DNA from: a virus
DNA: 27,468 nt
Reading direction: 5' to 3' (one strand)
Virus record (IMG/VR): IMGVR_UViG_3300049893_002131
Span: 1 to 27,468 of that record
This document shows, piece after piece, positions 10,976 through 20,824 of this stretch. The position numbers and the translations under genes are program-made. Under the pieces are notes generated by a model, which did not search any database, was not told the origin of the DNA, and worked only from the letters and a program-made list of their open reading frames with translations. The first letter of the stretch is position 1, and every line of letters starts with the position of its first letter.

Positions 10976-13867
10976 ATGAGTTTAAGAATTTATGGCGACT
11001 TGGCGCTCCAGAATCAGGCAGCTCTAAAACTGCTTGATGCCGCCAACGGCTACTCGGTTCAACTCCGGGCTCCTTCCAGCCTGGCGTCGGACACCACCTT
11101 CCAGCTGCCATCCAGCCTGGGTCAAAACAACCAGGTTATGGTGACAGATGCGAACGGCCAGTTCTCGTTCGCTTTCCTTGCTGATGCAAACGTTGCCAGC
11201 AATGCAGCAATCTCCCTGAGCAAACTTGCCGCTTTAACGGTAAGCAGGGCACTTGTGTCCGATTCAAACGGTGTGGTTTCCGCTAGCGCCGTAACGGCAA
11301 CTGAAATGGGCTTCTTATCGGGAGTCACCAGCTCAGTTCAGGACCAAATTGATTCGGAAGTCTCCGCTCGCCAATCGGCTATCTCCCAAGAGCAATCAGC
11401 TCGCGAAGCTGCCGATTCCGACCTGCAGGACGCAATTGATGCAGAAGCTGCAACAAGAGCTTCCGCAATCTCCGCGGAACAGTCCTCCCGTCAATCTGCA
11501 GATGCCAATCTTCAGAGCCAAATTGACAACATTCTCAGCAATGTGGACCCAGCAGCTCTTGACTCCTTAACGGAAGTTGTTGCTGCATTCCAAGCTGCTG
11601 ACTCTGACCTTAGCGCGGCTATCCAGGCGTTAGGCACGGGCGCAAACTCTGCTCTCGCCGACGAAGTCTCCCGGGCTCAAGCTGCTGAAACTGCACTTCA
11701 AAGCGCAATTGACGCGGAAGTTTCAAATCGCCAATCTGCCGTTTCAAGTGAAGCGTCGAGCCGCCAATCAGCTGACAGCACACTGCAATCGAACATTGAC
11801 GCAGAAGCTAGTGCTAGGGCCAGCGCCGATTCAAGCCTGCAAAGCGGCCTGACTTCGGAAGCTGGAACCAGAGCAGCTGCAGATACAGCACTTGGCGCCC
11901 GCATTGACGCGCTTACCGTAGATGACATGACTGACGTTGAAACCAGCTCCAAAGCTGGCGGCGACTTGATGGAGTGGGACTCGGTTGCTGGTCAGTGGAA
12001 AAATGTGGCTCCTCTAACGGAAGCTTCGGTTGTTACTGTTGTTACTCCCGGCAACGAGACTCTCGTCAACAGCTTCACCAATACCATCGCGGACAATGAC
12101 GGAGCTGGCCCAGCTTTAGGTACCACCTACAGCCCAGCTAGCAACGTAACTGTATCCAAAGTTGGTTTCAAAATTGGTCGTAGTTCCAACCTCACCGCAG
12201 GTATGACTGTTACGGCTAAAATCTATGCTGTTTCCGAGTTGATTGCCAATTACATCAACAGCGGTTACAACCCCAACGATTTTGCACTCATTGCCACTTC
12301 AACCAACACCCTTTCCGGTTCTGACTTAGCTCTCTATCCAGCAGCTCCTAGCATGGAATACTTTACGTTTAACAACGTACAGTTATCCGCTAACAACTTC
12401 TACGTTATTTGGGCAGAAGTGGACGGGATTCCTCTTGGCACTTCCACCACTAACTATCTAGCTCCGGCCTATGCTACTGGAGCTATGGGCTCATTCAGCA
12501 GCGGCCATTACAAGCATATGTCCCCCGGTGGGTGGGTTCAAGGTCTAACCGACTTGGTTCTTGGCTACGAAATCTACACTGGCGGAGCTGGTTCTAGCTC
12601 CACTGAAGCAGCTGTTGGCGTCATCAAGACGAATGCAGCTGGCCAGTTGGATGACTCCTTCCTCGCTCACGACGTAGACTTCGGCGGCCACAAGCTGTCC
12701 GGCGTTTCCAGTCCTGCTGCTGGAACGGACGCTGCCAATAAGGACTATGTTGACGCTGAAGTAGCAAGCGAAGCAAGCGCACGTTCCAGTGCCATTTCTT
12801 CGGAAGCTAGTGCACGTCAGAGTGCAGACCAGACACTACAAAGCAACATTGACTCAGAAGTCTCAAACCGTCAAGCTGCTGTTTCTGCTGAACAATCAGC
12901 TCGCGAAACTGCTGATAGTGCAGAGTCGGCTGCCCGCATTGCAGCGGACCAGGATTTGCAGGACCAGATTGATGCTTTGGACAGCGGTTCGAACGCTGCT
13001 CTAGCTCAAGAGGTCTCGGACCGCCAAGCTGCTGATGCGACACTACAAGGCAACATTGATACGGAAAAAGCCCGGATTGATGCTATCCTATCTGCTTCTG
13101 ACGCAGACAAAGACTCCTTCGCTGAGATTGTCCAGTTAATCAACTCGGTAGATACTGAGAACGACTCCGCTTTTGCTGCCTACGTTCTTTCGAACGACGC
13201 TGCTTTGGCTCAGGAAGTTTCGGACCGCCAGTCGGCCGTTTCTTCGGAGGCAAGTGCCCGTTCCGCTGCAGACACCACTCTGCAAGGCAACATTGACAGC
13301 GAAGCTGCTACTCGCCAGTCTGCTGATGAAACTTTGCAGGACAATATTGATGCTGAAGCTGCCAGCCGTCAGAGCGCCGATACTACCCTGCAAGGGAACA
13401 TCGATGCTGAACAGTCGGCTCGCGAAGCTGCTGACGCTCAAGAAGAAGCTGCTCGGATGGCTGCTGACGCTGGTCTAGCAGAGGATATTGCTGATGAAGC
13501 TAGTGCACGCCAAGCTGCGGACACCACGCTACAGTCCAATATCGATGCGGAAGCAACTGCACGGGCAGCTGGAGATGGAGCACTGGCTAGTGACCTGGCT
13601 GATGAAGTGTCTGCTCGGGAAACCGCTGACACCGAAATCTACACCTACATCGACGGTCACAAGTTCAAAATGGACTGGACCTCGGGAACCTCGCTGACTG
13701 TCACCCATAACATGGGAACGAAGGATGTGATGGTTCAGGTGTACGACAAGGCGGACGGTTCTAGCCTAACCATGGAGATGATTAGAGCGACCACTAATAC
13801 GGTAACTCTAACCGCTACTGAGGCTCCTAACGCTTCCGGCTGGAGAGTCCTAGTACTCAAAGTCTAA
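10976..13867 (+). CDS. Long tail fibre with coiled-coil repeats
   Basis: A 963-residue protein. Residues 1-65 are an N-terminal fibre motif (SDTTFQLPSSLGQNNQV). Residues about 120-310 are a coiled-coil repeat block built from units starting with Arg, such as RQSADSTLQSNIDAEASA. A DDMTDVE linker (about 315) leads to a beta domain (about 350-540) that may bind a receptor or glycan. DFGGHKLSGVSSPAAGTDAA with NKDYVD (about 566-592) is a widespread tail-fibre signature. A second coiled-coil block follows (about 592-890). The last 70 residues are a cap domain shared with the preceding protein. Such repeats form trimeric shafts. GAGG lies 8 bases before the ATG. A strong terminator follows. Confidence 0.85.
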   Translation: MSLRIYGDLALQNQAALKLLDAANGYSVQLRAPSSLASDTTFQLPSSLGQNNQVMVTDANGQFSFAFLADANVASNAAISLSKLAALTVSRALVSDSNGVVSASAVTATEMGFLSGVTSSVQDQIDSEVSARQSAISQEQSAREAADSDLQDAIDAEAATRASAISAEQSSRQSADANLQSQIDNILSNVDPAALDSLTEVVAAFQAADSDLSAAIQALGTGANSALADEVSRAQAAETALQSAIDAEVSNRQSAVSSEASSRQSADSTLQSNIDAEASARASADSSLQSGLTSEAGTRAAADTALGARIDALTVDDMTDVETSSKAGGDLMEWDSVAGQWKNVAPLTEASVVTVVTPGNETLVNSFTNTIADNDGAGPALGTTYSPASNVTVSKVGFKIGRSSNLTAGMTVTAKIYAVSELIANYINSGYNPNDFALIATSTNTLSGSDLALYPAAPSMEYFTFNNVQLSANNFYVIWAEVDGIPLGTSTTNYLAPAYATGAMGSFSSGHYKHMSPGGWVQGLTDLVLGYEIYTGGAGSSSTEAAVGVIKTNAAGQLDDSFLAHDVDFGGHKLSGVSSPAAGTDAANKDYVDAEVASEASARSSAISSEASARQSADQTLQSNIDSEVSNRQAAVSAEQSARETADSAESAARIAADQDLQDQIDALDSGSNAALAQEVSDRQAADATLQGNIDTEKARIDAILSASDADKDSFAEIVQLINSVDTENDSAFAAYVLSNDAALAQEVSDRQSAVSSEASARSAADTTLQGNIDSEAATRQSADETLQDNIDAEAASRQSADTTLQGNIDAEQSAREAADAQEEAARMAADAGLAEDIADEASARQAADTTLQSNIDAEATARAAGDGALASDLADEVSARETADTEIYTYIDGHKFKMDWTSGTSLTVTHNMGTKDVMVQVYDKADGSSLTMEMIRATTNTVTLTATEAPNASGWRVLVLKV
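11349..11905 (+). repeat. First coiled-coil repeat block (11- and 18-residue units)
   Basis: Translated units all begin at Arg or an equivalent position. Examples of 18 residues are RQSADSTLQSNIDAEASA and RASADSSLQSGLTSEAGT; examples of 11 residues are RQSAISQEQSA and RQSAVSSEASS. Eighteen equals 11 plus 7, so hendecads and heptads are combined. At DNA level the units differ by many synonymous changes. Confidence 0.7.
12756..13641 (+). repeat. Second coiled-coil repeat block
   Basis: The same unit design resumes after the beta domain. RQSADETLQDNIDAEAAS, RQSADTTLQGNIDAEQSA and RQAADTTLQSNIDAEATA are 18-residue units. Shorter 11-residue units include RQAAVSAEQSA and RQSAVSSEASA. A segment with ILSASDADKDSFAEIVQLIN interrupts the block. 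The codons used for identical residues differ from unit to unit. Confidence 0.7.
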
Positions 13868-13887
13868 TCCCTTTAGGGACTAATTTG

Positions 13888-13919
13888 GGGGCTCTGCCTA
13901 CGGGCGGGGCCCTTTTTTT
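13888..13919 (+). terminator. Rho-independent terminator
   Basis: GGGCTCTGCC (13889-13898) pairs with GGCGGGGCCC (13903-13912) over ten base pairs including two G-U pairs. The loop is TACG closed by C-G, a UNCG-type stable tetraloop. Seven T residues follow at once (13913-13919). It ends the transcript of the long fibre gene. Confidence 0.9.
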
Positions 13920-13957
13920 ATTCCCCTCAGCAAGGCCAAGTCCGGTTAGGAATTTTC

Positions 13958-13986
13958 TTGACCTTTCCAGCCTAGGGTGCTAACCT
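13958..13986 (+). promoter_or_regulatory. Candidate promoter between two terminators
   Basis: TTGACC (13958-13963) is five of six to consensus and TAACCT (13981-13986) follows after exactly 17 bases. It lies directly after a strong terminator, where restarting transcription for the next fibre gene would be needed. Expected start near 13993. Confidence 0.45.
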
Positions 13987-14070
13987 GAGGATTGGCTCTC
14001 CTTAGTCGTTTTTCATGGGGCAGGGCCTTCCCCCCTAAGCCAAAGCCCAGTTATGCTGGGCTGGGCTTTT
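13985..14070 (+). ncRNA. Possible short RNA or structured leader
   Basis: Between the 13958 promoter candidate and the stem ending at 14070 there is room for a transcript of about 78 bases starting near 13993. GGGG (14017-14020) can pair with CCCC in the C-run 14030-14035, and the transcript would end in the 14042-14070 stem. A further hairpin, CTGAGG (13985-13990) with CCTTAG (14000-14005), overlaps the expected start and would need a start upstream of it. Either a free small RNA or the structured 5' leader of the 14118 gene would fit. Confidence 0.3.
14042..14070 (+). terminator. Terminator-like stem before the next fibre gene
   Basis: AAAGCCCAG (14042-14050) pairs exactly with CTGGGCTTT (14061-14069), nine pairs. 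An alternative seven-pair stem uses CTGGGCT at 14056-14062. Four T residues (14067-14070) end it, then GGGCCCCC. It could terminate or attenuate transcription 48 bases before the ATG at 14118. Confidence 0.5.
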
Positions 14071-14117: not shown

Positions 14118-16709
14118 ATGGATATTTTTGGCTATTTAAGAGAGGTACGAGGCCTCCTGTTCCGCAAGCCCACTTCCCAAGGGGGCAAGCAGGTTACCAT
14201 TCAGCCAAGTGCTGCGTCTGACGCCTCGGACACCACCTTCCAACTGCCCGATTTGACACAGAATACCCCCTCCCCTCTCACCTCCGATACCATTGTGGGC
14301 CAGGATGCAAAGCAGACCCTGTCCAATAAGACTCTCACAAGCCCAGCTATAAACGGGGCCACTATCGACGGGACCAGCACGATAGCGGGCACCAGCGGAA
14401 CAAATGTGGCAGCCGGAGCAGGACTTGCTAATGCGGCCACAAATCTGAATACGGCAAGCACCCTGGTAAAGCGGGATGCATCGGGCAACTTTTTAGCTGG
14501 GCAGATTACGGCGACCGATTTCATTGGACACCTCCAGGGGAACGCGGACACCGCAACCACGGCTGGAAGCACTGGAACTTTTACTGGAACCTTCAGTGGG
14601 GATGTAGCTGGTGGTCAATCCACAACCCAAGTGGACCAAGTTGGCCCCACCGGGAATAAGAAGACGGCCACTCAAATCGCCACTTCCGTAGATACCACCA
14701 CAGCAGCTACCCAGCTGAACACCCCCAGCACTCTCGTGAAGCGGGATGCGTCCGGCAACTTTGCAGCCGGGACAATCACCGCGTCTCTAGCCGGGAATGC
14801 AACTACCGCGACTACCTCCGTGTCCTTCTCCGGCTCCTTGACCGGGGATGTGACCGGAACTCAGTCCAGCACGGTAGTTTCTACTGTCGGGACTAAGACT
14901 GCCACCCAAGTTGCTCAGGCTGTCACTGACACTGTTGATGCAACTCCTTTGGCCACGCCTGGTAAGTTGGTAAAACGGAATGTGTCTGGGGAAGCCTCCT
15001 TCGCTGGAATCAGTTTGACACAGCCTTTATCGGTTACTAACGGAGGTACTGGAGCTACGACAAGTACAGGCACCGGCTCAGTCGTTCTTGGTACGGACCC
15101 TCAACTCTATCAGCCTGCCCTTCTTGATATTGTGAAACAGGACTACAAAGACGAAGCTGCCACCATTGGCGCCTCCTCTCCCTATCTCCTAACTCCCACC
15201 GCAGAATATCCAGTTCAGAGAATCACCTCGGGAACCACTTTAGGGCAAGTGGGCGGAGCAACCGGAACTGGCCGGCAGTACATCCTAATTAACGAGACTG
15301 CCAGCGATATTACAATTAAGAACAATGTGACCGCAAATGCCTATTCCATTTACACGGGAACTGGAACGGATTTTGTTTTAAAGTCGAATGCGGCTGTCAT
15401 TCTAGTCTACGACCAAAGCCTGGCTTCAGGAGCAGGACGCTGGGTTCTAGCCGGAGGCTCAGGTGCAGGTGGCGGTTCTAGTACTGTCAATATCACTGCA
15501 ACTGGCTTCTCGTTAGGCAATGTGATTGCGTCTAACGGCACCGGCTACATTAAGGGCGCTGCAAATGCGGCATCTACAAGCGAAGTCGTCGGTATTATTA
15601 GTAAAGTGGTTACGGTTAATGCGGAGTATGAACTCACCCTGCTGGGCTTAGTTAGTGTGCAAGCGTCCGACTTTGTGGATGCAAGCGGAGTGCAGCTCCT
15701 AGCCACCCCGGCCTCTGGTACGGCAATCTTCTTGTCGAATGTCGTAGCAGGCAAACTGACTGCGGTGGAACCCACAACTATTGGGCATGTGAGTGTTCCT
15801 CTCGGAGTAATGGCTGCAGATACCAGCAAAATGTACTTCATACCGAAGCGCGGAAGCGTGGTGGGCGGTACTAACGCAAGAACCCAGCTTACTCTGACTT
15901 CAGCTGCTACTACCCAGATTTTTAATGCAGCTACTCCTAGTCTGTATCAAGCAGGAGAACTGACGGGCTGGGTCCAACTTGGTACCAACCAGAAGTTCTA
16001 CTTCCAAGCACCATTTGCTCAGAACGGCGCAGGGACAGACTGGAACATCTCCCCAAGTTATGTCGGCGATACGCCTCCAACCGGCTTCTCGATAACCATA
16101 TCGAGCGCAGGTGCCATCTCAGCAACTTGCCCTACGTTCTCAGGAACGGGACTGATAAACTATGCGCTGAATGCTCCAGCAGTCGGAGCTACCTTCCCGT
16201 TAGAAATCAGTGCGGCCAGAATTACTCAGGATACGATAGCCGCAGCCCGCCTTCCAGTCGTGGTACCAGGTACTAGTGCTGGCGTAGTAGCTGCTGCTGG
16301 TTTACCCGGGAATACTACGGGTAGTGTAATTGCTGCTGGGTATGTGGGGGAAGTAAAAACAGCGACTGGAACTAGCACAACTGTTTCATCCAGCTACACA
16401 CAGGTAGCAGCGGTTTCACTAACTCCTGGAATTTGGTGCGTTTCTGGAAGTGTTTATTATTCTGGCACCGGAGGTACATCTATCGGTATCGCTATTTCAC
16501 AAAATCCAAATAGTAGTGCCGGACTCGTTATTGGAATTTCTAACGTAGCGTATGCACTAAACGCTACGTCAGGTACTGGCGGTGCTACCTTACCTGCTGT
16601 ATTTGTAACGGTAACAACTAATCCTACTCCTTATTATCTTAATTATAATTCATCTGGTGTGTCATCTGGAACGTTTTATGGTGGCATCCAAGCTGTAAGA
16701 ATCGCATAG
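14118..16709 (+). CDS. Modular tail fibre / receptor-binding protein
   Basis: An 863-residue protein; the ribosome-binding site is weak (GGA at 14108). Residues 1-15 contain a short hydrophobic-basic start. SDTTFQLPDL (about 36-45) matches the N-terminal motif of the preceding fibre. Residues about 110-300 hold three copies of a unit with LVKRDASGNF, GNATTAT and KTATQ elements, a common phage fibre repeat. The middle (about 330-740) is beta-rich and glycine-rich. From about residue 742 (GEVKTATGTSTTVSSSYTQV) a separate C-terminal domain runs to the end with GIWCVSGSVYYSGTGGTSIG. That part is richer in A/T-ending codons than the rest, suggesting exchange. Its likely role is contact with the host surface. 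Confidence 0.8.
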   Translation: MDIFGYLREVRGLLFRKPTSQGGKQVTIQPSAASDASDTTFQLPDLTQNTPSPLTSDTIVGQDAKQTLSNKTLTSPAINGATIDGTSTIAGTSGTNVAAGAGLANAATNLNTASTLVKRDASGNFLAGQITATDFIGHLQGNADTATTAGSTGTFTGTFSGDVAGGQSTTQVDQVGPTGNKKTATQIATSVDTTTAATQLNTPSTLVKRDASGNFAAGTITASLAGNATTATTSVSFSGSLTGDVTGTQSSTVVSTVGTKTATQVAQAVTDTVDATPLATPGKLVKRNVSGEASFAGISLTQPLSVTNGGTGATTSTGTGSVVLGTDPQLYQPALLDIVKQDYKDEAATIGASSPYLLTPTAEYPVQRITSGTTLGQVGGATGTGRQYILINETASDITIKNNVTANAYSIYTGTGTDFVLKSNAAVILVYDQSLASGAGRWVLAGGSGAGGGSSTVNITATGFSLGNVIASNGTGYIKGAANAASTSEVVGIISKVVTVNAEYELTLLGLVSVQASDFVDASGVQLLATPASGTAIFLSNVVAGKLTAVEPTTIGHVSVPLGVMAADTSKMYFIPKRGSVVGGTNARTQLTLTSAATTQIFNAATPSLYQAGELTGWVQLGTNQKFYFQAPFAQNGAGTDWNISPSYVGDTPPTGFSITISSAGAISATCPTFSGTGLINYALNAPAVGATFPLEISAARITQDTIAAARLPVVVPGTSAGVVAAAGLPGNTTGSVIAAGYVGEVKTATGTSTTVSSSYTQVAAVSLTPGIWCVSGSVYYSGTGGTSIGIAISQNPNSSAGLVIGISNVAYALNATSGTGGATLPAVFVTVTTNPTPYYLNYNSSGVSSGTFYGGIQAVRIA
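14450..15010 (+). repeat. Three-fold fibre repeat (about 80-90 residues)
   Basis: Copies carry LVKRDASGNFLAGQIT (about residue 116), LVKRDASGNFAAGTIT (about 206) and a diverged LVKRNVSGEASFAG (about 284). Between them lie FTGTFSGDVAGGQS and FSGSLTGDVTGTQS, followed by KTATQ. Confidence 0.7.
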
Positions 16710-16731
16710 TCAACTAGTGTGACCGGATAGC

Positions 16732-16752
16732 CAACACCGATACTCAGTGTTG
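16732..16752 (+). other. Leader hairpin 1 of the fibre cassette
   Basis: CAACAC (16732-16737) pairs with GTGTTG (16747-16752) around nine bases. It is preceded by GC and followed by AC, giving GCC...GAC flanks like the hairpin at 16801. Confidence 0.4.
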
Positions 16753-16800
16753 ACTCTCCTTCGAGAACAGATAGACAATAACACAAAGGGAGTCTATAGC

Positions 16801-16815
16801 CAACCGAAGCGGTTG
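16801..16815 (+). other. Leader hairpin 2, covarying partner of the 19923 hairpin
   Basis: CAACCG (16801-16806) pairs with CGGTTG (16810-16815) around AAG. The hairpin at 19923-19937 has the same loop, the same flanks (GCC before, GTC after) and stem changes that keep pairing. It overlaps the approach to the TTGACA box at 16818. Confidence 0.55.
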
Positions 16816-16817
16816 TC

Positions 16818-16846
16818 TTGACAGTGACCCACAAATGAACTAAACA
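16818..16846 (+). promoter_or_regulatory. Candidate promoter of the fibre cassette
   Basis: TTGACA (16818-16823) and TAAACA (16841-16846) are 17 bases apart. Transcription would start near 16853, giving a leader of about 57 bases that includes the 16855-16883 hairpin. The -35 box directly follows hairpin 2. Confidence 0.45.
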
Positions 16847-16854
16847 AGAAGGGG

Positions 16855-16883
16855 CCTCTATACTCGCGAAGCTAGTATGGGGG
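16855..16883 (+). other. Leader hairpin 3 with a GCGAAGC tip
   Basis: CCTCTATACT (16855-16864) pairs with AGTATGGGGG (16874-16883), including G-U pairs. After one mismatch the tip is GCGAAGC (16866-16872), a sequence known for an exceptionally stable mini-hairpin. It ends 14 bases before the GGAG ribosome-binding site at 16897. Confidence 0.45.
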
Positions 16884-16909
16884 ACCCGGCAACAACGGAG
16901 TAAAACGAC

Positions 16910-17644
16910 GTGACTACAGTAAGCACCCTCGGCACCTACGGAGACCCGTCAGGAAGTAGCCTGATGTTCCGGAACAAAATAATCAACGGCGGCTTTGACA
17001 TTTGGCAACGTGGCACTAGCCAGACTTCAAGTGGTTATGGAAGTGACGATAGATGGAGCAACAGCAACAGCGGCACGACTAAGACACATTCTAGACAAGC
17101 ATTTGATGTTGGACAAACGGCAGTTCCAGGCAATCCGACATACTATTCCAGAACTGTTGTAAGTTCCGTTGCTGGCGCCGGTAACTACGCAGTTAAATTG
17201 CAGAATGTTGAAAATGTAGCTACATTGTCAGGGCAGACTGCCACTTTATCGTTTTGGGCAAAGGCAGACACAGCTAAGAATGTGGCAATAGAGTTTAGAC
17301 AAGAATTTGGGTCTGGGGGCTCGCCTTCCTCACCTACCAGCTTTTCCGTAAGTACAGTCAGTCTTACTACAAGTTGGCAACGGTATTCCGTTATGGTAAA
17401 CGTGCCAAGTATATCCGGTAAAATTCTAGGAACTAATAACGACCACTCTTTGGCAATTTGGTTCTGGTTTGATGCAGGTTCCAATTGGAATGCGCGTACC
17501 AACTCCCTCGGCCAACAGTCCGGTACTTTTGATATTGCTCAAGTTCAACTGGAAGCAGGCTCCTCAGCTACCCCCTTTGAGCAGCGTCCAGTGGGCCCTC
17601 TGTCAGAGGTATTTGTGCTCTTTTGGTGGAAACTCAACTTATGA
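16910..17644 (+). CDS. Tail fibre / glycan-binding-like protein, frameshifted at its 3' end
   Basis: A 244-residue frame starting at GTG, with GGAG 9 bases upstream. It begins with a phage fibre signature, MFRNKIINGGFDIWQRGT, followed by DDRWSNSNSG and a jelly-roll-like carbohydrate-binding pattern (LSGQTATLSFWAKADT ... TSWQRYSVMVNVPS). It continues through FDIAQVQLEAGSSATPFEQR to PVG at 17588-17596. In intact proteins of this type RPxG is followed within a few residues by ALCQRY. Here the frame instead runs into unrelated GPLSEVF and stops, while ALCQRY continues in the +1 frame. So the last 16 or so residues are out of frame. The gene looks disrupted, unless ribosomes shift there or the assembly has an error. 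Confidence 0.75.
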   Translation: MTTVSTLGTYGDPSGSSLMFRNKIINGGFDIWQRGTSQTSSGYGSDDRWSNSNSGTTKTHSRQAFDVGQTAVPGNPTYYSRTVVSSVAGAGNYAVKLQNVENVATLSGQTATLSFWAKADTAKNVAIEFRQEFGSGGSPSSPTSFSVSTVSLTTSWQRYSVMVNVPSISGKILGTNNDHSLAIWFWFDAGSNWNARTNSLGQQSGTFDIAQVQLEAGSSATPFEQRPVGPLSEVFVLFWWKLNL

Positions 17645-17942
17645 GACACCTGCCGTAGGACAAGCAGCTGGAGGAACAACTGCTTATTTTGCTTTATCGT
17701 TTCCAGTTGAAATGAGGACTTCTCCAGGGCTATCCGTTTCTTCTATCAGTCACTGGACAGCCTGCAACACTACTGGGGCCAATATTACCGCAACTAATAT
17801 TACATTAGGAACAACATCAACTGGAACACGGTGCGGTGTATTTTACGTCACTGTGGCATCTGGTTTAGTTGCTGGTAGTGCTTCGTTATTGCAAGCCAAC
17901 AATACAACAAGTGCGCGTTTGTATTTCTCAGCAGAACTCTAA
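17469..17942 (+). pseudogene. C-terminal part of the frameshifted tail fibre
   Basis: The frame is open from an ATG at 17469, but only the part from about 17595 looks like protein. There it reads ALCQRYLCSFGGNSTYETPA and then a beta-rich Thr/Ala/Gly segment ending TTSARLYFSAEL. ALCQRY normally follows the RPxG ending of the upstream frame, so this is the tail of the same gene, displaced by +1. The portion 17469-17594 overlaps real coding sequence in the other frame and is a shadow. There is no ribosome-binding site at 17469. The joined protein would be about 343 residues. An ordinary separate gene is unlikely. Confidence 0.65.
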
Positions 17943-17977
17943 TCCACTTTCTCACACTCTGAAAGGAGTATTTTTAT

Positions 17978-19918
17978 ATGACATCGAGTGCTTTCACACC
18001 AGCCGTTTTGACCGTACCCTCTACCGGAGGGGGCACGGGACAGGGTGAACTAAATATAGTAACGAACTCCATCGCTGCCTCTGACACCACGGGGTGGTCT
18101 GCAGTAGGCCCAGCAGCTACTCTTGGTAAAGGAACAAGTGGGGGACCGCTTTCTCCCACTATCGGTACCTATTTTACCATCATCAACACCATAGGTTCTC
18201 CGACAGAGAGTTCTACTTCGGGTGCTTACTCCGTCCTCACGCTGCCTTCGGGGATGCAGAACCGGAAGCTGAAAGTGGAGTTCTATTTTACCAGTCCTGC
18301 TACAGATACCTTCAGTGTCTCTGTGTACAAGGGTACCACCCGGGTACCGCTGACGACGGACTCAGCTGGAGCGACCAACTTACCGAAGTCTACTACCGGC
18401 AAGTTTACTGCTTACTTTGATACGGATAGCTCCGGGACCTGGACCCTCTCGATTACTCGAACCGCGGGTAGCGGTGCAACTCCGTTGCAATTTACTAACG
18501 TGGTCGTCGGCCCCGGCATCCAACCCCAAGGTGCTGTAGTGGGTGAGTGGCAATCTACGACGCTAACGCCGAGTGTAGCTGCGTTCGGAACCGTCTCTAA
18601 TCAAGACTATTGGATTAAAAGAGAGGGCTCGGAAGCAATCATTCGCGGTTCTTTCTTGACTGGAACAACTGCTGCGTCTCCAGCTGTAATAGCAATGCCG
18701 GCCAATTTGACAATCAACGCTACAGCACTGGCATCCACTGCGCGTGGTCGTTTAGGCAGATTTGAAATTGGTACAACAATCGGCAATGCGCTAATTTCCT
18801 CGACCGATAAAGAAGGTGTTATCTATTATAACGGCTCAAGTACCAGCAACCTGTATCTAACGGTACAAACCACAACTACTGGATATTACGCAAACAACGG
18901 TACCTCAATAACTGGTGGACCAGCGTATATTATTTTTGAAGCGCGTGTACCAATCGCCGAATGGACCGGCTCGGGTACCGTCCAACTCGCTCAGAATGAT
19001 GTTGAGTACGCGTACAATACTAGCGGACTTACTACAGCTGGTGGTTCAAATACTTCTGCGTTTGGCTACGGCCCAGTGGGAGCGGTGTTAGGGTCTATTG
19101 CATCTACTACTCAGGCGACCAGCTATACCACCATGCGTGTCAGATTTCAGACACCTATCCAGGCCGGGGATTCCATTGTTGTTGAATTTGATGGTGGTCA
19201 AAATCAGTGGATGCCAGCACCAAACCGGTCCCCTTGGATAATTAATAACGCAGCTGTATACGGAGTACAGGCTGTTCCTGTATTTGGAAGTTTGACCGAT
19301 GTTGATGTTCTTTTCGGTAACTCCGGACAGCAGAGTTCAGGAGCACTGACTTACGGCACAAGCGGCTCAGCCTGGTCAAATATATCTACATGGAAATGGA
19401 GGGTAAGGAAGTCCTCAGCAGGTGCTGCTGTGGGCTATGGTATTGTAGCCAAAGACCAGTCTGGCCTACTTCCGGCTTACAACACCAACCTGGACGATGC
19501 TACAGCGACTAGGCTGGGATTGAAGCAGTATCTGCATGGTACGAGCTACAATGGCGGGAATGCTCCAACTGTTACGTCCTCGCAGGCCGGTTTCTCGGTA
19601 AACAGAGCTGTATTTGTCCCCTACCAGACGCAGGACGGTGCTTGGCGGTTGAAGTTTAATATTACAGCAGCTTTTACAAGTGCAACCATAACTAGCAATG
19701 TTACTACGATAGCGGGAACAGTTTTCAAGTCTACTACCAACAACTATCAACCAGCATTTGGGATGCCGATAGGTAATACTTTAGGGATATATCAAGCATA
19801 TGTATCTCCGAGCACGGGTGCCTTGACGTTAATAACCCCGTCAACGCCAGGAGTTACAGGCGTAGCCTACTCCGGCGACGTAGAACTGGATTCTAAACCA
19901 ACTTGGGCCTACAGCTAA
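17978..19918 (+). CDS. Tail fibre / receptor-binding protein
   Basis: A 646-residue protein with AAGGAG 10 bases before the ATG. Residues 1-25 hold a low-complexity VPSTGGGTGQGELNI start seen in modular fibres. Residues about 50-175 form a beta-sandwich-like module (LKVEFYFTSPATDTFSVSVY ... GTWTLSITR). From about residue 185 a module begins GEWQSTTLTPSVAAFGTVSN and continues with WIKREGSEAIIRGSF, a pattern typical of C-terminal fibre domains in phages. A second part (about 410-510) contains SLTDVDVLFGNSGQQSSGAL, and the C-terminus is again beta-rich. It probably contacts the host surface together with the frameshifted neighbour. A hairpin follows three bases after the stop. Confidence 0.75.
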   Translation: MTSSAFTPAVLTVPSTGGGTGQGELNIVTNSIAASDTTGWSAVGPAATLGKGTSGGPLSPTIGTYFTIINTIGSPTESSTSGAYSVLTLPSGMQNRKLKVEFYFTSPATDTFSVSVYKGTTRVPLTTDSAGATNLPKSTTGKFTAYFDTDSSGTWTLSITRTAGSGATPLQFTNVVVGPGIQPQGAVVGEWQSTTLTPSVAAFGTVSNQDYWIKREGSEAIIRGSFLTGTTAASPAVIAMPANLTINATALASTARGRLGRFEIGTTIGNALISSTDKEGVIYYNGSSTSNLYLTVQTTTTGYYANNGTSITGGPAYIIFEARVPIAEWTGSGTVQLAQNDVEYAYNTSGLTTAGGSNTSAFGYGPVGAVLGSIASTTQATSYTTMRVRFQTPIQAGDSIVVEFDGGQNQWMPAPNRSPWIINNAAVYGVQAVPVFGSLTDVDVLFGNSGQQSSGALTYGTSGSAWSNISTWKWRVRKSSAGAAVGYGIVAKDQSGLLPAYNTNLDDATATRLGLKQYLHGTSYNGGNAPTVTSSQAGFSVNRAVFVPYQTQDGAWRLKFNITAAFTSATITSNVTTIAGTVFKSTTNNYQPAFGMPIGNTLGIYQAYVSPSTGALTLITPSTPGVTGVAYSGDVELDSKPTWAYS

Positions 19919-19922
19919 GAGC

Positions 19923-19937
19923 CGACTGAAGCAGTCG
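19923..19937 (+). other. Hairpin after the fibre cassette, covarying with 16801-16815
   Basis: CGACTG (19923-19928) pairs with CAGTCG (19932-19937) around AAG, flanked by GC and TC. Compared with 16801-16815, A-T has become G-C and C-G has become T-A. Similarity continues for about 15 bases downstream (GAC, GA and CAC kept in register). There is no T-run, so it is not a standard terminator. Confidence 0.55.
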
Positions 19938-19963
19938 TCGGGACTGAGAAACACTGGGATACT

Positions 19964-20824
19964 ATGAAGTCTTTCTGGACATTTCTACTCTTCTATCTGA
20001 CGCACCTCTTCGGCTGCGCTTCAGAATCCGAGTCCCTGTCCCCGGAGACTCTGGACCAGCTTCGTGAGCTGCGGGAGTACCTGCGCGAGCAGTACGCCCG
20101 GAAGGCGGAGCAGCACCTAGGCAACTGGCCCTCCGATTCCGATTGCGATGGCGCCCTTTGGGCCGGGGTTGCCCGAGCGGCCGGTCTGGAGCAGGTCGAT
20201 TTGAGTCTAGGCCTAACCTGGGAAGGAAGGCCCACCCGGCGCCCTGGTTCCGATTGCGGCCCTCTGGAGCTGGGAATGAACGGGGGAGCAGCTTGCACCA
20301 CCAGCACCGATATGATGACCGGCCTTATCCTCGGATTATATTCTGATGGCGATTTAACAAGCCTCCGGAAACTCAGGGGATACGCGGACAGGAACGCCCT
20401 AGTTATGGGATTCCCTAAAACGCTTGTGGCCAGGTCCGTTATGAAGCCGGGTACCCGCTCTTTACTGTCCAGGGCGATTCAGAAGCTTGGCGGGCAGAAG
20501 GACGGCTGGAAGTACCTGGACCAAATTTACACACCCCCTCTGCAGGACTACGAGTTGCATCTCTCCCTCCTAACTCTCCTGCTGGAGGAGAAGCTGGGCA
20601 CCATGAACGACACCAAGCGGGCTGTCCTGGATTTGGAAGCCAGTTTGAACCCGCAGGACGCCTTCTGTCTCGCCCTGGCAGGGCAGCACCAAAAGGCTGC
20701 AGATTTACTCAGGAATCCCGGCTGGACCCCGCCAGGCTACGTTAGAGGCCCGGAGCTTGCCGGTTTAGTGCATAAGCTCCTGGTTATTCAATACATTCTT
20801 GACACCCACTCAAAAAGGAGGTAA
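19964..20824 (+). CDS. Predicted phage lipoprotein of unknown function
   Basis: A 286-residue protein. Residues 1-18 (MKSFWTFLLFYLTHLFGC) form a short signal sequence ending in a lipobox-like LFGC, so Cys18 would be lipidated and the protein held in the cell envelope; Phe at -2 is less usual. A charged helix follows (about 25-48). The core has conserved-looking Cys/Asp motifs: SDCDGALWAGVARAAG, RRPGSDCGP and TTSTDMMTGLILGLYSDGDL, then GTRSLLSRAIQKLGG. I recall similar motifs in uncharacterised phage and bacterial proteins but cannot name a family. The spacing of acid, Cys and Thr/Asp residues suggests an active site. It precedes an XhlA-like gene, so lysis or superinfection exclusion are possible. 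GC-rich codons differ from the fibre genes before it. Confidence 0.65.
   Translation: MKSFWTFLLFYLTHLFGCASESESLSPETLDQLRELREYLREQYARKAEQHLGNWPSDSDCDGALWAGVARAAGLEQVDLSLGLTWEGRPTRRPGSDCGPLELGMNGGAACTTSTDMMTGLILGLYSDGDLTSLRKLRGYADRNALVMGFPKTLVARSVMKPGTRSLLSRAIQKLGGQKDGWKYLDQIYTPPLQDYELHLSLLTLLLEEKLGTMNDTKRAVLDLEASLNPQDAFCLALAGQHQKAADLLRNPGWTPPGYVRGPELAGLVHKLLVIQYILDTHSKRR

Follow-up and report, generated by a model that had tools for sequence, protein, structure and literature searches.

An uncultivated virus contig, IMGVR_UViG_3300049893_002131 (27,468 bases, analysed whole and called the window below), carries two adjacent fibre-region genes, the cassette, with a small hairpin on either side, which raises the question of whether these hairpins are related, what they might do, and whether they have any part in the presence of the genes between them. 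Its genes are those of a tailed phage: a terminase, an SU10-type adaptor, a P22/SU10-type portal, a protein in the capsid position and a series of large fibre-like genes. We find two close copies of the hairpin and one looser one, all on the coding strand and all intergenic, with stems kept by compensatory change. Our leading interpretation, held tentatively and with rather less than even confidence, is that they are stem-loops of the mRNA, paralogous to one another, which lie in the spacers of fibre genes and were duplicated during rearrangement of the fibre region.

Genes and hairpins of the fibre region

The features on which the argument rests are as follows.

14118–16709, + strand: fibre-like gene of 863 aa, 5' of the hairpins; open reading frame with a weak PHROG structural-protein match
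16730–16754, + strand: third hairpin, GC(CAACAC-CGATACTCA-GTGTTG)AC; from the frame scan, fold −7.0 kcal/mol
16799–16817, + strand: hairpin copy 1, GC(CAACCG-AAG-CGGTTG)TC; stem-loop proper 16801–16815
16818–16832, + strand: likeness past copy 1, TTGACAGTGACCCAC, with the hexamer TTGACA at its start; from the alignment
16852–16887, + strand: separate strong hairpin in copy 1's spacer, the leader of the first cassette gene; GCGAAGC apex, 16850–16890 folding at −21.3 kcal/mol (z −3.2)
16910–17942, + strand: first cassette fibre gene; PHROG tail fibre, E 8.7e-61
17978–19918, + strand: second cassette gene, 646 aa; open reading frame
19921–19939, + strand: hairpin copy 2, GC(CGACTG-AAG-CAGTCG)TC; stem-loop proper 19923–19937
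19940–19954, + strand: likeness past copy 2, GGGACTGAGAAACAC; from the alignment
19964–20824, + strand: probable lipoprotein gene of 286 aa, 3' of the cassette; same place in the relative L012

The first cassette protein is about 60% identical to a Rhizobium phage fibre, with homology running in one frame up to about EQRPVG and the expected ALCQRYL resuming in another. Its gene is divided between a 244-aa open reading frame (16910–17644) and a second frame that continues to 17942, and the apparent shift, near 17590–17600, could mark either a gene that is genuinely broken or a fault in the assembly. The 646-aa protein has no PHROG, Pfam or phage match. A probable lipoprotein of 286–291 aa sits among the fibre genes both here and in L012 (18388–19263), with no Pfam match for the L012 homologue and neither a Pfam nor a PHROG match for the window protein. 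Elsewhere in the window, the spacer at 13887–14070, between genes for 963-aa and 863-aa proteins, holds a strong terminator (13887–13914) together with another hairpin, GC-rich, near 14045, which suggests separate transcription units; the gene-poor left end holds a 20-base inverted repeat (803–822 versus 919–938, 90% complementary).

Copies 1 and 2 each consist of a 6-bp stem and an AAG loop, with the C of GCC pairing with the G of GTC, and fold at about −6.5 and −6.8 kcal/mol, respectively. Two of the six stem pairs differ between them, both in a compensatory manner (A-T/G-C and C-G/T-A), and the loop and the remaining four pairs are identical. An ungapped alignment of 16798–16832 with 19920–19954 gives 26 identities in 35 positions. 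The two hairpins therefore have the sequence and position reported for them in the initial annotation, the differences in their stems do preserve pairing, and the 15 or so further bases of similarity described there extend to 16832 and 19954. A third exact match to the pattern first proposed, at 12504–12522, lies within coding sequence and does not fold.

The third hairpin shares ATAGCCAAC with copy 1 (16796–16804), and ATAGTCAAC, related to ATAGCCAAC, overlaps the stop codon at 16706–16714. This hairpin had been missed, and it alters the layout: one copy does stand on each side of the fibre genes, as originally described, but the extra member at 16730–16754 makes two before them, and the arrangement is two hairpins 5' of the cassette and one 3', with no matched pair of borders. 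When both strands of the window were scanned with the frame GC(C-stem-G)[AT]C, exactly three hairpins were returned (0.22 expected in shuffles), all of them in spacers, which make up 5% of the window; because G[AT]C replaced GTC in the frame only once the third hairpin was known, this count is partly post hoc and should be taken as suggestive, not as a clean test.

Pairing, folding and searches for further copies

Under our preferred reading, the hairpins would form weak stem-loops in the mRNA, positioned at gene ends or close to them, where they may protect or separate neighbouring messages, and the copies would have arisen as spacer DNA that was duplicated or carried along while two extra fibre genes were gained. 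Several observations point this way: the likeness of the copies exceeds that found in shuffles and among unrelated pairs of hairpins from other phages (see below); both stem differences are compensatory around an invariant loop; the third copy lies in copy 1's spacer; copy 2 begins two bases past the stop codon of the 17978–19918 gene, ahead of the next gene start; and the cassette is absent from L012, where the flanking genes abut. Neither copy is listed as terminator-like, and the absence of a T-run after either stem means that they are not intrinsic (Rho-independent) terminators, which we also count in favour of stem-loops of this kind. Folding prediction has each hairpin forming in isolation. 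The paralogous RNA control elements suggested at the outset thus stand as far as paralogous stem-loops are concerned, given the likeness, the compensatory changes and the third copy; their effect on RNA is putative. On the other side, the stems are weak as well as short, at about −6.5 kcal/mol, the 91 nt surrounding copy 2 are no more stably folded than shuffled sequence, and two covarying pairs in two sequences amount to little evidence; such pairs can also arise without selection, by template switching at quasi-palindromes. The set also occurs in one genome only, and so lacks the conservation that usually signals function.

The main rival reading is a neutral one, in which the hairpins are relics of an old spacer duplication that have no present function and whose palindromes survive through biased mutation or by chance. 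We judge this somewhat unlikely, though it accounts for a good deal: the weak stems, the absence of hairpins at both places in L012, the lack at copy 1 of a downstream gene start comparable to that of copy 2, and the fact that the element was not found elsewhere in the searches made. It sits less easily with a divergence of 26% that has yet broken no stem pair, and with the retention of the same frame in the third copy.

Those searches covered both structure and sequence. A covariance model, which the initial annotation had proposed for finding further copies at fibre-gene borders, scored about 50 bits on copies 1 and 2, from which it was built, and no more than about 11 on the rest of the window; it returned nothing credible in the relatives or in nine phage regions with homologous fibres (including those of Rhizobium, Stenotrophomonas, Agrobacterium and Pseudomonas phages), so that no member beyond the training pair came to light by a method which, like the pattern searches, detects close copies only and would let a diverged family with other stems escape. 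In IMG/VR, GCCNNNNGAAGCNNNNGTCNNGACNGNGA matched three loci whose stems fail to pair, and GCCNACYGAAGCRGTNGTC, which covers both copies, matched seven, five of which pair perfectly but all within open reading frames (in L021/L023, for example, the frame of a tape-measure-like protein on the other strand). A longer pattern had no match in the genome collection. Rfam gave no match above the family gathering score in either the window or the spacer, and no tRNA or tmRNA was found.

Chance likeness and the region in a relative

A resemblance picked out by eye among the many hairpins in 27 kb could be fortuitous, which we consider unlikely. The number of hairpins is indeed at chance level, with 8 in the window against 6.5 in shuffles (6-bp stems, 3-nt loops), and hairpins alone therefore mean nothing. 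For the same class, however, the best pair likeness of 24/38, against a shuffle mean of 15, was reached in 0 of 300 shuffles; it was likewise reached in 0 of 60 with stems of at least 6 bp and loops of 3–8, and in 1 of 60 once stems of 5 were allowed, this broadest class being the one that lends chance some weight. In approximately 193 kb of other phage DNA, from which most loci fetched with the hairpin motif itself were excluded, unrelated pairs reach a likeness of only 11–18, and one higher-scoring pair in that comparison is a genuine repeat of another phage. The likeness of copies 1 and 2 is beyond chance in most tests, and the position of all three members in the small spacer fraction of the window also speaks against coincidence.

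The window has few close relatives in IMG/VR, most of which end short of the hairpin and cassette region; no relatives were found with the proteins at 14118, 19964, 21478 and 22890 as queries, nor was a capsid relative found in the genome collection. The only informative relative that spans the region is L012, which comes from a contig of 59,352 bases and has a capsid-position protein at 74% identity. It keeps the outer genes, namely a fibre gene with an N-terminus like that of the 863-aa protein (residues 1–71 against a 556-aa protein, 34%, E 2e-5, BLASTP) and a homologue of the 286-aa lipoprotein (42% over 273 aa, E 3e-54, BLASTP), only 17 bases apart. The L012 record contains no match to either cassette protein, and the hairpins are absent at both places, with none at the gene junction. 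Because L012 is without both fibre genes and its outer genes abut, 16910–19918 is, by sequence comparison, extra DNA relative to it; L012 is too divergent for breakpoints to be placed or for gain and loss to be separated between the lineages. The comparison of relatives proposed in the initial annotation thus came out in part as expected, in that the cassette DNA is missing and its neighbours are kept, but the hairpins are missing too.

This comparison bears directly on the proposal that the hairpin DNA supplies short homology by which phages exchange receptor-binding cassettes. The retention of the outer neighbours in L012 without the cassette is consistent with it, as is a cassette GC content of 48–50% against approximately 52–53% for most core genes. 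We nevertheless rate it as quite improbable: there is no hairpin at the L012 junction, no other hairpin-bordered cassette was found, the copy number is odd (three), and phage fibre regions are variable anyway. With L012 lacking cassette and hairpins alike, no hairpin-bordered swap is visible, and one genome this divergent is unable to identify the hairpins as crossover points. The suggestion of recombination borders is not borne out, the model and pattern scans having turned up no further copy at a gene border, and nothing here shows the hairpins driving gene exchange. A wider version, in which hairpins private to this phage lineage would delimit fibre modules open to exchange and steer how these are acquired or lost, whether by serving as recombination sites or by supplying portable RNA ends with which a module could be added while the adjoining genes stay undisturbed, is in our view very unlikely.

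Duplicated promoter or operator sites, with a palindrome beside a −35 element, are a highly improbable explanation. TTGACA lies directly 3' of copy 1, and in the phage record L024 the palindrome TGAGAATCATTCTCA occurs twice (11634–11663 and 12684–12713, 1050 bases apart), each time followed by a −35-like TTGACA promoter element; the L024 pair are probably duplicated operators. Copy 2, however, has GGGACT at the equivalent place, no acceptable −10 was found at either copy (sigma-70 consensus only, in a promoter scan that does not list 16818–16832), and promoter-like sites in the hairpin region are at chance number by the same consensus.

Comparison with known phage elements

Tailed phages carry intergenic mRNA stem-loops and processing sites. 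The hairpins described here resemble these in being small, coding-strand structures between late genes, and differ in being paralogous, with the same frame and loop; the mRNA role we assign to them is putative. Target hairpins of diversity-generating retroelements (DGRs) have a 7–10 bp GC-rich stem and a GRNA loop and lie downstream of the variable repeat (PMC3240598), and a hairpin just past the stop codon of a fibre gene recalls that of the tail-fibre/tropism gene mtd in phage BPP-1, but the stems here are shorter (6 bp) with AAG loops, no RVT_1 reverse transcriptase match was found in the window or three relatives (records that may be incomplete), no template/variable repeat (TR/VR) pair was found in the window, and a DGR target at the fibre gene ends is extremely unlikely.

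The closest described case is that of the promoter early stem-loops (PeSLs) of T4-like phages, repeated spacer stem-loops which, in work cited in PMC4503421, are reported to mediate gene shuffling between related phages, are described by title as composite promoter-terminator motifs, and are densely distributed where genes have been shuffled. Both systems comprise short repeated stem-loops in phage spacers. Set against that account, the present hairpins differ in having no T-run after either stem and hence no terminator character; in having TTGACA at copy 1 only and no acceptable −10, and so no adjacent early promoter by the sigma-70 consensus; in numbering three copies in two spacers, with no others found by the model, rather than many at module borders; and in belonging to a phage with a P22/SU10-type portal, which is not T4-like. 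What the present evidence describes is a small feature repeated in the spacers of a single genome, beside a gain of fibre genes of a kind common in phages. Were the hairpins to guide fibre exchange, they would be markers for finding exchangeable host-range modules, and a podovirus-like counterpart to the role reported for PeSLs in T4-like phages.
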